A stretch of 64,000 bases of DNA, from the NCBI GenBank assembly GCA_949294735.1, contig CASFII010000006.1, positions 62,001-126,000 on the forward strand, in the 5' to 3' direction. The DNA is from an uncultured Coriobacteriaceae bacterium. GTDB lineage: Bacteria; Actinomycetota; Coriobacteriia; Coriobacteriales; Eggerthellaceae. Below are positions 1,061 to 12,102 of the stretch, in pieces (the stretch's first letter is position 1; the number at the start of each line of letters is the position of its first letter). A program made the translations under genes and the position numbers. The notes under the pieces were generated by a model that was not told the DNA's origin, did not search any database, and worked only from the letters and a program-made list of their open reading frames with translations.

Positions 1061-2390
1061 TGGGATAATGGTAAAGGGAGGAGTCACGCTCTCTGAAAGA
1101 GAACGTGAAAAAGCAGTTTTGGTTGGTATTGAACGACCCTCAAGTCAGTGGTCGCTGTCCGCAACCTTAGCAGAGCTTGAACGCCTGGTTGACACTGCAG
1201 GTGCTGAAGTAGTAGCAACTACCTCACAAAAACTTGAAACCCCTAATCCACGAACGTTTATTGGCTCAGGAAAGGCTGAAGAGGTTGCCTCTCTTGCACG
1301 CAGTTTAAGTGCTGATCTTGTGGTCTTTGACGACGAATTAACACCCTCGCAACAAGCTAATCTTGAAAAGATTATGGGTAAAAACGTTAAGATAATTGAT
1401 AGAACGGCACTCATCCTTGATATTTTTGCTCTTCATGCAACGAGCAAGGAGGGACGCTTGCAGGTCCGTCTTGCTCAGAATCAGTATCTTTTACCTCGTC
1501 TGCGAGGCATGTGGGCGCATTTAGCCTCTAATCGAATGGGCGGTGGTGTTGGTTCTCGTTTTGGTGAGGGCGAAAGTCAGCTTGAAGTTGACCGTCGTAT
1601 GGTTCGAAAACGGATTACTTCAATTAAACGGGAACTCAAACATCTTTCAAAAGTACGCGCTGTTCAACGAGAGAGTCGTTATGAAGCGGGTATTTTTAAG
1701 GTTGCGCTAGCAGGTTATACCAATGTAGGGAAGTCGAGTCTCCTTAATTATCTTACCGACGCAAATGTCTTGAGCTACGACAAGCTGTTCGCGACGCTTG
1801 ATTCAACAACCAGAAAGTATACGCTCCCTGAAGGAAGAATAATTACCCTCACCGACACAGTTGGCTTTATACAAAAGCTTCCAACAACATTGGTCGAGGC
1901 GTTCCAGTCAACTCTTGATGAAATTCGAGGTGCTGATCTCATCCTTCACTTAATTGACGCTACCTCTCCTGAATACGAAAAGGAAATTGAAGCGGTTGAA
2001 GATGTGTTTGAGCAAATTGAAGCACAGAAGATTATTCGCATAGAGGTCTTCAATAAATGCGACATGCTCTCTGATGACCAACGTCTTGCTTTGCAATCAA
2101 GAAGGCCTCATGCAGTACTAATTTCTGCAAAAACAGGTAAAGGTATTGACACTCTCATTAATCGAATCGCGCATGCAGCATCAGCACAAGAACAGCACCT
2201 TGAAGTTCTTATACCTTATCATCGCGGAGATTTGGTATCTTTAGCACATAAGCGCTGCCATCTACTCAAGGAAGAGCATACAGAAAGAGGCACCCACCTT
2301 GTCATGAATGCCTCCGTAAGTTATGCCCCTTTGTTTAAGGAATTTCAGGTTAAAGACGACGGAATACTGCAACAACCTTACCAGCAATAG
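1047..2390 (+). CDS. hflX: GTPase HflX
   Basis: HflX is a ribosome-associated GTPase that splits stalled 70S ribosomes under stress. The N-terminal HflX domain carries the glycine-rich AHLASNRMGGGVGSRFGEGE region, followed by a coiled helix and the G domain: GYTNVGKS at about 223-230, DTVGF at about 270, NKCD at about 336 and SAKTG. The start chosen is GTG at 1047, since AGGAG sits at 1036-1040 with a 6-base spacer; an in-frame ATG at 1029 and another at 1068 are weaker. It overlaps miaA by 14 bases. At the 3' end it runs 41 bases into the convergent lexA gene, so the two messages are complementary at their ends. Confidence 0.94.
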   Translation: MTEYNGIMVKGGVTLSEREREKAVLVGIERPSSQWSLSATLAELERLVDTAGAEVVATTSQKLETPNPRTFIGSGKAEEVASLARSLSADLVVFDDELTPSQQANLEKIMGKNVKIIDRTALILDIFALHATSKEGRLQVRLAQNQYLLPRLRGMWAHLASNRMGGGVGSRFGEGESQLEVDRRMVRKRITSIKRELKHLSKVRAVQRESRYEAGIFKVALAGYTNVGKSSLLNYLTDANVLSYDKLFATLDSTTRKYTLPEGRIITLTDTVGFIQKLPTTLVEAFQSTLDEIRGADLILHLIDATSPEYEKEIEAVEDVFEQIEAQKIIRIEVFNKCDMLSDDQRLALQSRRPHAVLISAKTGKGIDTLINRIAHAASAQEQHLEVLIPYHRGDLVSLAHKRCHLLKEEHTERGTHLVMNASVSYAPLFKEFQVKDDGILQQPYQQ

Positions 2391-2997
2391 TACAGTCATT
2401 CGTAATGATAGGATCCATTGAAGAGTTTTCAGGTTGTAGGCGAATATAGCCGTTTTCTTTATAAAAACGCTTAACGGTTGCGCCTTCATCAATGAGAGCT
2501 ACAACAATGTCTCCATTATTTGCCACAGGCTGTTCTTTCACGACAACATAGTCGCCATCATTGATACCTGCTTCAATCATGCTTTCACCACGAACAGAAA
2601 GCATGAAGGATGGCGCATCACCCACAATATCGGTAGGAAGCGTAATAGTATCCGTTATGTTCTCTTCTGCCAAAATGGGTTCACCAGCAGCAACGTTGCC
2701 CACCAAAGGAACCGTCACCAACTTACTAAAAGAAGGAGAGAGGATATGGGCTCCTACTGAAACACTATCTTCTTCATCTAGAGGATAGGTAAGCGCAATG
2801 GAGCGTGATTTCAGAGGATCCCTTTTGATAAGACCTTTTTCTTCTAACGCCTTTAAGTGAACATGAACAGTGGATGGGGAAGAGAGGCCTAAGCTTTGGC
2901 AAACTTCCCGCACTGTTGGGCCATAGCCTTTTTCACGAATGCATTCTTCAATGCAATCAAGTACGGCCTGTTGGCGCTTCGTAACTTTTTCAGTCAT
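2350..2997 (-). CDS. lexA: SOS repressor LexA
   Basis: LexA represses DNA-damage genes until RecA-stimulated self-cleavage. The 215-residue product has an N-terminal winged HTH (recognition region SSPSTVHVHLKALEEKG, about 39-55), a cleavage bond Ala104-Gly105 within VAAGEP, and the S24 peptidase dyad Ser139 (in RGESM) and Lys176 (in ATVKRF). The start is the ATG at 2997, the standard MTEK-type beginning just before the HTH; the open frame extends upstream through the operator region but that part is not protein-like. Three GAAC-N4-GTTC boxes lie directly upstream, so autoregulation is expected. It is divergent from a small SOS peptide gene and convergent with hflX, overlapping it by 41 bases. 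Confidence 0.96.
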   Translation of the reverse strand: MTEKVTKRQQAVLDCIEECIREKGYGPTVREVCQSLGLSSPSTVHVHLKALEEKGLIKRDPLKSRSIALTYPLDEEDSVSVGAHILSPSFSKLVTVPLVGNVAAGEPILAEENITDTITLPTDIVGDAPSFMLSVRGESMIEAGINDGDYVVVKEQPVANNGDIVVALIDEGATVKRFYKENGYIRLQPENSSMDPIITNDCTIAGKVVAVFRRL

Positions 2998-3017
2998 TGT
3001 TCTACCTTTCAAAATTT

Positions 3018-3088
3018 CGAACAAATGTTTGAAATTTATATTGACAGGAACTTTTGTTCGATTTATTATAAACGCGAACAAAGGTTCT
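3018..3088. promoter_or_regulatory. Three LexA (Cheo-type) operators between lexA and the divergent SOS gene
   Basis: Three copies of the Gram-positive/actinobacterial LexA box are visible: CGAACAAATGTTTG (3018-3031), GGAACTTTTGTTCG (3047-3060) and CGAACAAAGGTTCT (3075-3088). Their centres are 29 and 28 bp apart, close to whole helical turns, which would put three repressor dimers on roughly one DNA face. The middle and right boxes have the intact GAAC-N4-GTTC core; the left one has GTTT in place of GTTC. They control lexA leftward and the 55-codon gene rightward. Confidence 0.88.
3041..3069 (+). promoter_or_regulatory. SOS promoter for the 55-codon membrane peptide (and possibly nrdR)
   Basis: A perfect -35 TTGACA at 3041-3046 and a -10 TATTAT at 3064-3069 are separated by 17 bp. 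LexA box 2 fills the spacer (3047-3060), and box 3 covers the expected start region, so the promoter should be tightly closed until LexA is cleaved. The layout is seen directly; regulation is inferred from known LexA sites. Confidence 0.75.
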
Positions 3089-3112
3089 ATGCAAGGTCTA
3101 GGGGGCAGAAAA

Positions 3113-3280
3113 ATGAAAAACTTTGAATCAAATCCAAACTACAAGATTTCGTTGCTCCATGATTTTCGTAAAGGAAGTTGTGCTGGCCAAAGCTTCAATG
3201 CTTTTAAACCTTGGCAAGCAGCCTTATCTGGTTTCTTTCTTACGGTATTTGCCTTTGGCACTGTTCTCATAGGAATGTAA
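3113..3280 (+). CDS. Small single-pass membrane protein under LexA control; candidate SOS cell-division inhibitor
   Basis: This 55-residue product has a polar, basic N-terminal part (1-32) and one hydrophobic helix from about 34 to the very C-terminus (PWQAALSGFFLTVFAFGT...). The ATG at 3113 follows AGGGGG at 3100-3105 with 7 bases between. Its position, divergent from lexA and upstream of nrdR, is where Gram-positives and actinobacteria carry SOS division inhibitors (YneA in Bacillus, DivS and the LysM protein Rv2719c in actinobacteria). Those relatives usually have an extracytoplasmic LysM or similar domain; here the protein ends as it leaves the membrane. No family could be recognised from sequence, so function is inferred from position, operators and topology. 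No continuation of a LysM domain was found downstream in another frame. Confidence 0.72.
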   Translation: MKNFESNPNYKISLLHDFRKGSCAGQSFNAFKPWQAALSGFFLTVFAFGTVLIGM

Positions 3281-3284
3281 GCAA

Positions 3285-3300
3285 ACACAATAACTTGTGG
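3285..3300. promoter_or_regulatory. Possible NrdR box upstream of nrdR
   Basis: ACACAATAACTTGTGG resembles the NrdR-box pattern ACACWATATATWGTGT, with 13 of 16 positions matching. A weaker half-box ACACTA starts at 3315, 30 bases downstream; genuine NrdR sites usually occur as pairs about three helical turns apart. It lies 35 bases before nrdR, so autoregulation is possible. The second box is poor, which keeps confidence low. Confidence 0.35.
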
Positions 3301-3334
3301 TAGGATAAGCGCATACACTAAACAAAGGAGATGT

Positions 3335-3784
3335 ATGCGCTGTCCTAAATGTGATTTTGCTGAATCTAAGGTAGTAGACTCTCGTCCATCAGAAGATGGT
3401 TACACCATTCGTCGTCGTCGTGAATGTCTTAGCTGTGGTTATCGGTTTACCACTTACGAAAGGCTTGGAGAAAGCGCCTTAATTGTTATTAAATCAGACG
3501 GTTCGTCTGAAGCGTTTGATCGTGACAAACTCCTCCGAGGTTTATTAATCGCTTGCGCTAAGCGTCCTATTCAGCCTTCCCAGGTAGAAGATGTCATCAA
3601 TGACATTGAAAAGGAACTTCACTCTTCTCAACGTAATCAAGTTCGCTCAAAAGAACTAGGTGAAATGGTCTTAAAACGCTTGGTTGATCTTGATGATGTG
3701 GCTTATGTTCGTTTTGCAAGCGTGTATAAAGATTTCCAAAACGTAGAAGAATTTGCAGCAGCGCTTGAAAACATCCATAAGTAA
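3335..3784 (+). CDS. nrdR: Transcriptional repressor NrdR of ribonucleotide reductase genes
   Basis: NrdR senses ATP/dATP through an ATP-cone and represses ribonucleotide reductase operons. The 149-residue protein has the N-terminal zinc ribbon (Cys3, Cys6, Cys31, Cys34, with RRRREC before the second pair) and an ATP-cone from about 49 to 139 (VIKSDGSSEAFDRDKL onward). Length is exactly typical. AAAGGAG at 3324-3330 precedes the ATG at 3335 by 4 bases. It lies between the SOS peptide gene and dut, a grouping around dNTP supply and DNA damage. Read-through from the LexA-controlled promoter could make it partly SOS-responsive; that is inference. Confidence 0.96.
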   Translation: MRCPKCDFAESKVVDSRPSEDGYTIRRRRECLSCGYRFTTYERLGESALIVIKSDGSSEAFDRDKLLRGLLIACAKRPIQPSQVEDVINDIEKELHSSQRNQVRSKELGEMVLKRLVDLDDVAYVRFASVYKDFQNVEEFAAALENIHK

Positions 3785-3801: not shown

Positions 3802-3820
3802 ACTTAGAGTTACTCTAACT
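3802..3820. promoter_or_regulatory. MerR-type palindrome, site A (nrdR-dut gap)
   Basis: The 15-bp core TTAGAGTTACTCTAA at 3804-3818 is a perfect 7-1-7 palindrome, lying 34 bases before dut. It matches the core of sites near 4348, 4380 and 12093. Such TAGAGT/ACTCTA dyads are typical operators of MerR-family regulators, and a merR gene starts at 4441. No -35/-10 pair with the 19-bp MerR spacing is evident around this copy. Confidence 0.6.
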
Positions 3821-4298: not shown

Positions 4299-4340
4299 AC
4301 TGACTACTTATAACTCTAAAACATTGAGCTCCTCCTAAAC

Positions 4341-4355
4341 TTAGAGTAACTCTAA
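4341..4355. promoter_or_regulatory. MerR-type palindrome, site B (dut-merR gap)
   Basis: TTAGAGTAACTCTAA is a perfect 7-1-7 palindrome identical to the other sites except for the central base (A in place of T). It lies 43 bases after dut and 85 bases before merR, 32 bp centre to centre from site C. The TAGAAT at 4357-4362 could serve as a -10. The short repeat suggests cooperative binding or autoregulation. Confidence 0.6.
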
Positions 4356-4372
4356 CTAGAATTCTTAACTAC

Positions 4373-4387
4373 TTAGAGTTACTCTAA
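4373..4387. promoter_or_regulatory. MerR-type palindrome, site C (directly upstream of merR)
   Basis: The core TTAGAGTTACTCTAA is preceded by AC and followed by C, 53 bases before the merR ATG, where an autoregulatory operator would be expected. An A-run and a T-run follow at 4388-4402. No convincing -35/-10 pair with 19-bp spacing could be drawn here, so the promoter itself is not called. Confidence 0.6.
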
Positions 4388-4440: not shown

Positions 4441-4806
4441 ATGTCATACAGCATCACAGACATCGAAGATATGACTGGCATATCAGCTTTTACGATTCGT
4501 TATTATGACAAATGTGGCTTTTTCCCAGATCTAAAAAGAAACTCTCGTGGTCGACGAGAATTTTCAGAAAAGGATTTAAATCAGCTTTACCTTATTGAGG
4601 CACTTCGAAAAAGTGGGCTCTCTATTGAGGGAATTCAATATTATGTGCGTCTAAGCAAAACCTACGGAACTGAACAAGAAAGGCTTGCTATTCTGCGCGC
4701 TCAGCAAGTAGCCTTAGAGTACCAAAGGGATTTAATCAATGAGAGTCTTAAACATATACAAGATGCTGAGGAGAAAATAACCTCAACGACTAATGACAAG
4801 GCTTAA
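4441..4806 (+). CDS. MerR-family transcriptional regulator
   Basis: The 121-residue protein starts with a typical MerR winged HTH (YSITDIEDMTGISAFTIRYY, about residues 3-22, then the wing with NSRGRREFSEKDL) and continues into the LYLIEALRKSGLSIEGIQ segment and a C-terminal coiled coil (about 75-115, EQERLAILRAQQVALEYQ). It has no C-terminal metal-binding cysteines; the only Cys is in YYDKCGFF. That resembles the AdhR/NmlR-like or stress-type MerR proteins rather than metal sensors. AAGGA precedes the ATG. Three matching palindromes lie within 650 bases upstream, so autoregulation is likely. The effector is unknown. Confidence 0.9.
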   Translation: MSYSITDIEDMTGISAFTIRYYDKCGFFPDLKRNSRGRREFSEKDLNQLYLIEALRKSGLSIEGIQYYVRLSKTYGTEQERLAILRAQQVALEYQRDLINESLKHIQDAEEKITSTTNDKA

Positions 4807-12083: not shown

Positions 12084-12102
12084 ACTTAGAGTTACTCTAA
12101 GT
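12084..12102. promoter_or_regulatory. MerR-type palindrome, site D (between dppF and the PAP2 gene)
   Basis: ACTTAGAGTTACTCTAAGT is a perfect 9-1-9 palindrome, the longest of the four sites. Rightward, TTGCAC at 12080-12085 and TATCGG at 12105-12110 flank it with exactly 19 bp, the spacing typical of MerR-activated promoters, though the -10 is poor. Both neighbouring genes end here, so any transcript would run antisense to the PAP2 gene through the terminator at 12111. It might instead add to mRNA 3'-end structure. Confidence 0.5.

Follow-up and report, generated by a model that had tools for sequence, protein, structure and literature searches.

The window, meaning the whole stretch of 64,000 nucleotides analysed here, comes from a gut bacterium of the Eggerthellaceae whose genome (1.34 Mb in 8 contigs, completeness 86%) is small. 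Near its beginning, a short gene, here called X, lies between lexA and nrdR. The following features make up the locus:

2350 to 2997, minus strand: lexA, 215 aa with LexA_DNA_bind and Peptidase_S24 domains, divergent from X, start at 2997
3019 to 3030: LexA box 1, GAACAAATGTTT, one mismatch, the box closest to lexA
3041 to 3069, plus strand: sigma-70-type promoter, TTGACA at 3041 to 3046, 17-bp spacer, TATTAT at 3064 to 3069
3048 to 3059: LexA box 2, GAACTTTTGTTC, within the promoter spacer
3076 to 3087: LexA box 3, GAACAAAGGTTC, downstream of the −10 element
3100 to 3105, plus strand: Shine-Dalgarno sequence AGGGGG, 7 nt 5′ of the ATG of X
3113 to 3280, plus strand: X, ATG at 3113 and stop ending at 3280, predicted 55-aa single-pass membrane peptide MKNFESNPNYKISLLHDFRKGSCAGQSFNAFKPWQAALSGFFLTVFAFGTVLIGM, cytoplasmic residues 1 to 32, helix 33 to 54
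3335 to 3784, plus strand: nrdR, downstream of X, a neighbour conserved among relatives
From 3852: dut, after nrdR

A preliminary description of this DNA had reported a 55-residue ORF divergent from lexA with one N-in helix and no ectodomain, and the coordinates, an AlphaFold2 model and a Pfam scan bear it out. In the model, built on a 27-sequence alignment, a confident helix spans residues 33 to 54 (pLDDT of the block 87 to 97) and is followed by one residue, while a second helix at residues 9 to 19 has low confidence. The topology of X is predicted to be N-in, C-out. Among the 78 Eggerthellaceae X proteins, 56 have a net positive charge in the 20 residues preceding the helix, and none of the 78 has lysine or arginine after it.

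The promoter of X is the sole site found in a promoter scan of this stretch, with 11 of 12 matches, where 0.8 such sites are expected in shuffled sequence. A lone site of this quality is not beyond chance; its arrangement, however, is conserved in the family. A promoter-like site stands upstream of all 77 Eggerthellaceae X genes analysed, with a 17-bp spacer in 75 of them and a LexA-type box inside the spacer in 66. At least one perfect LexA box is present in 77/77 and at least two in 68/77, mostly spaced by 28 or 29 bp, and the distance from the start of lexA to the start of X stays within 102 to 133 nt. The earlier statement that a perfect TTGACA is followed by a LexA box filling the 17-bp spacer was right in substance, the box occupying 12 of the 17 bp. 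The motif GAACN4GTTC occurs at only 20 places in the 1.34-Mb genome, two of which fall in the lexA–X intergenic region; on inspection the remaining places look mostly incidental. One GAACTAATGTTC box stands where a gene begins that was judged by eye to be Y-family polymerase-like (L186, same genome, G000:C2:100902), as an SOS box would, which is consistent with LexA using the motif elsewhere in the genome.

When 60 relatives were searched with the peptide, the matches were weak, and the better ones fell mostly at an ORF between lexA and nrdR. The lexA–nrdR intergenic regions were taken from the same family, from other families of the order and from 80 named GTDB loci. The preliminary description had proposed a comparison with lexA-adjacent genes by HMM and synteny. 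Against a profile made from the C-terminal 45 residues of the relatives' proteins, from which the window's own X was left out, the window's X scores 45.7 bits, and the homologues in relatives likewise sit between lexA and nrdR. The best shuffled controls reached 8.2 bits (2000 full shuffles) and 14.9 bits (2000 shuffles keeping the helix block separate), and none of the 4000 attained 45.7. Because the true score compares with at most 14.9 bits in these controls, X is a homologue of the genes at the same place in relatives and not a chance ORF.

The order lexA–X–nrdR is the rule in Eggerthellaceae, and the gene is present in nearly all relatives. Its common form encodes 71 to 188 aa and begins with a MKNFE..YPV.GTSAL.P-like start, followed by a IIxFP motif, a variable stretch, LRYGxxxG and a helix that ends the protein. 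No Pfam or NCBIfam model matches any of the 27 X proteins scanned. A phylum-wide survey of nrdR loci added one further Eggerthellaceae form (L155, 73 aa) and, outside the order, no clear case of lexA–X–nrdR. A literature search that lay mostly outside subscription journals turned up no publication on the SOS genes of Eggerthella.

All 78 Eggerthellaceae X proteins end within 0 to 6 residues of the 17-residue helix core, the tail of the window's X being 2 residues long. None of the 27 scanned proteins matches the Pfam LysM model, nor does anything in the window's genome at its present completeness. As all 78 proteins end at the membrane exit and none of the 27 matches LysM, the missing ectodomain is a family-wide trait of Eggerthellaceae X and no peculiarity of the window's peptide. 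The preliminary description, which had presented the peptide as standing in place of the usual LysM-type inhibitor, was misleading on this point. A LysM domain after the helix is found only in X-position proteins from three other families of the order, where six of seven pass the Pfam cut-off and the seventh carries a 76-residue tail without a match. Five of these seven share with the LysM-less forms an N-terminal GxxAL motif, extended as GxxAL...VI, which is weak in each protein (0 to 1 of 300 shuffles score as high). By its sequence, X is a shortened representative of a still unnamed family of membrane proteins encoded divergently from lexA.

The window's X has in common with this family its place divergent from lexA and upstream of nrdR, an SOS promoter whose 17-bp spacer holds a LexA box, and a C-terminal block of LRYGxxxG plus helix that ends at the membrane exit. 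It retains MKNFE, an FRKGSCAGQSF stretch resembling LRYGxxxG, and the helix. The block from GTSAL to IIxFP is a gap for this protein in the family alignment. A GTSAL-like motif is present in 64 of 67 long forms and in no part of the window's X; a loose IIxFP pattern did match it, yet the alignment shows no such block. Peculiar to the window's X is that most of the cytoplasmic part has been lost. The preliminary description had held that lack of conservation in close relatives would count against the small ORF. On this point the answer is partial: the gene is kept across the family, but it is longer in most relatives, and the 55-aa form is known from a single genome.

Shortening is not confined to the window. 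At one locus and behind one promoter, X forms a length series of 71 to 188, 58, 55, 34 and 23 residues, and none. The 58-aa form comes from a roe deer gut MAG (L116) and the 34-aa form from L030. In one Adlercreutzia clade X has 23 residues and is essentially one helix, for example MARYEFPIAFALSTIASFVIFFA in A. equolifaciens. Peptides of this length are carried by L097, L098, L100, L024/L102, L090, L091, L108 and L110, as well as by L192 to L200 (Adlercreutzia, between lexA and nrdR); the form is present, with the SOS promoter just upstream, in all nine Adlercreutzia genomes examined. The peptide of the window, once described as minimal, is therefore not the minimum. A further candidate for the series, a 41-aa X at L065 (G009), was rejected because its GTSALKP...IIPFP...helix sequence lies in an open frame different from that of the ATG that follows the Shine-Dalgarno sequence; this probably reflects a frameshift or start-codon problem, or a non-standard start.

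The 23-residue form behaves as a gene. Eight sequences keep all 23 codons and a nearly equal Shine-Dalgarno sequence and start distance, and their variable sites at codon positions 1, 2 and 3 number 12, 5 and 20. Pairwise dN/dS lies between 0 and 0.38, and one pair of genomes, differing by 9 synonymous changes and 0 non-synonymous ones, encodes an identical peptide. This strong synonymous bias marks the ORF as coding and, on the comparative evidence, shows a peptide that is translated and under purifying selection. For most members, sequence homology between the 23-aa helix and the helix of the long forms is not significant; the case for descent of the 23-mer from longer forms is made by position, promoter, start distance and neighbours. 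When helical periodicity was used to look for a conserved face on the 23-aa helix, none emerged (permutation p = 0.35). In a LexA+NrdR tree, a quick tree with some forks open, the 23-aa clade is separated from the rest by a branch of SH-aLRT 98, the three short forms are placed apart from one another, and the fork uniting L001 with its neighbours has SH-aLRT 93. Comparison of these forms shows that the inner, cytoplasmic part has been trimmed independently in several Eggerthellaceae lineages, down to a 23-residue helix. Ten Eggerthellaceae loci (L022, L026, L048, L111, L128, L130, L133, L135, L141 and L144) have no X-like ORF between lexA and nrdR, although lexA is still divergent from nrdR, and most of them retain LexA-box-like sequences. 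For this state without X, starred branches force at least 4 changes over the whole LexA+NrdR tree. Given these ten loci, X is not essential.

Single-pass proteins encoded divergently from lexA inhibit cell division in several Gram-positive bacteria (PMC6851548). The nearest in kind are YneA of Bacillus subtilis, SosA of Staphylococcus, and the actinobacterial SOS inhibitors ChiZ of Mycobacterium and DivS of Corynebacterium, and the kinship that the preliminary description saw with YneA/DivS-type genes is supported. Like X, to judge X by sequence and prediction, YneA lies beside lexA, is controlled by LexA and has a single N-in helix. In YneA this helix binds TM7 of FtsW, but the extracellular LysM domain, which X lacks, is essential for inhibition, and YneA without LysM localises and does not inhibit (PMC13396833). 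ChiZ and DivS likewise resemble X in their features, namely one helix and a position near lexA (PMC3989709; PMC6851548). Unlike X, ChiZ carries a LysM domain, which is reported to be dispensable for function (review PMC3989709), and DivS, while free of LysM, is predicted to extend its C terminus outside the cell (PMC6851548), where X has no ectodomain. SosA is divergent from lexA, small (77 aa) and free of LysM, with one helix, but it depends on an extracellular C-terminal part that X does not have, and SosA variants with major C-terminal truncations are inactive (PMC6851548). Since LysM-less YneA and C-terminally truncated SosA do not inhibit, a helix by itself does not suffice in general.

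In design, X would be akin to SidA of Caulobacter, an SOS-induced inner-membrane peptide of only 29 aa without a cell-wall domain, which inhibits division through FtsW (PMC4211646). SidA is proteobacterial and presumably unrelated to X by descent; X, unlike SidA, has relatives with a longer cytoplasmic part and, in other families of the order, relatives with LysM. AF3 models from the YneA study, of low confidence, place SidA on the opposite side of FtsW TM7 (PMC13396833). As YneA and SosA need their outer parts and SidA does not, X would have to act in the manner of SidA, via its inner part, or be no division inhibitor. X may function in the way of a YneA/ChiZ-type protein, yet the LysM criterion excludes it from that type.

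Because X lies beside lexA and resembles this known class of inhibitors (YneA, SosA, DivS and ChiZ; PMC6851548; PMC3989709), the reading with slightly better than an even chance is that X is an SOS-controlled membrane inhibitor of division, the local form of the Eggerthellaceae lexA–nrdR gene, acting on a septal synthase. LexA bound to the three boxes would cover the promoter and repress both lexA and X. Upon DNA damage, LexA would cleave itself and X would be made; the orientation predicted for it in the membrane has the N terminus in the cytoplasm and leaves the C terminus bare on the outside. The helix, together with the short LRYGxxxG-like stretch before it, would then bind a partner in the membrane, most plausibly FtsW/FtsI, the septal peptidoglycan synthase, by analogy with SidA and YneA, and hold it inactive without any binding to the cell wall. 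Division would resume once LexA re-accumulates and X is degraded. The window's genome encodes three SEDS (FtsW/RodA) proteins as possible targets, at G000:C6:279099, 553444 and 182839.

The known LexA-controlled single-helix peptides of like size also include toxins. DinQ and TisB of Escherichia coli, both below 30 aa, are type I toxins with an antisense RNA that depolarise the membrane, and DinQ (27 aa) does so while leaving filamentation unchanged (PMC3567139). An X of this kind would slow metabolism without touching the divisome, and the 23-aa Adlercreutzia form much resembles such peptides. Unlike DinQ and TisB, X adjoins lexA throughout and is homologous to proteins of 70 to 190 aa with conserved cytoplasmic motifs, and the LysM-bearing forms that other families have in this place favour a role at the cell wall or in division. 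No sign of an antisense antitoxin RNA was seen, either as a credible Rfam match in this stretch or as a minus-strand promoter-like site in 2950 to 3400. A toxin of this type is accordingly considered unlikely.

It is more doubtful still that X is a decaying remnant on its way out of a small genome, with most of its cytoplasmic part already gone. The confinement of this form to a single incomplete genome would fit decay, as would the LexA-like boxes left in several relatives without such an ORF. Nonetheless, the promoter, boxes, Shine-Dalgarno sequence, MKNFE start and C-terminal 40 residues are intact and in frame, and the independent shortenings elsewhere kept the helix, the shortest being under purifying selection. 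Equally improbable is an SOS-induced X that acts on another membrane target, such as a transporter, protease or sensor, to which the lack of any Pfam/NCBIfam match leaves room, but against which stands that the characterised lexA-adjacent single-pass Gram-positive proteins compared in the SosA paper are division inhibitors (PMC6851548).

If X is a division inhibitor, the Eggerthellaceae would possess one that dispenses with an outer domain and has been trimmed repeatedly. The bolder proposal that even the 23-residue end point still arrests division, by intramembrane pairing with the septal synthase, falls somewhat short of an even chance. If true, binding by a helix alone can switch FtsW/FtsI off. 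At issue is how a single-pass peptide stops septal wall synthesis, given that the YneA helix needs LysM and SidA manages in 29 residues. The Eggerthellaceae offer a natural deletion series whose shortest form is under purifying selection, so whether a helix is enough becomes directly testable in culturable gut species. These natural minimal forms make the test a sharp one because the YneA helix alone does not block division.

Two further motifs were observed in the window. Between X and nrdR, at 3285 to 3299, ACACAATAACTTGTG is similar to an NrdR box (expected number of matches in the window, 0.07); nrdR is probably under its own control. The dyad CTTAGAGTNACTCTAA is present in four copies, at 3803 to 3818, 4340 to 4355, 4372 to 4387 and 12085 to 12100 (counting both strands, 8 matches against 0.2 expected). 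Copies surround dut and precede a merR-type gene (4441 to 4806), and one stands just past the end of an ABC-transporter ATPase gene; they are possible operators of a MerR-family regulator.
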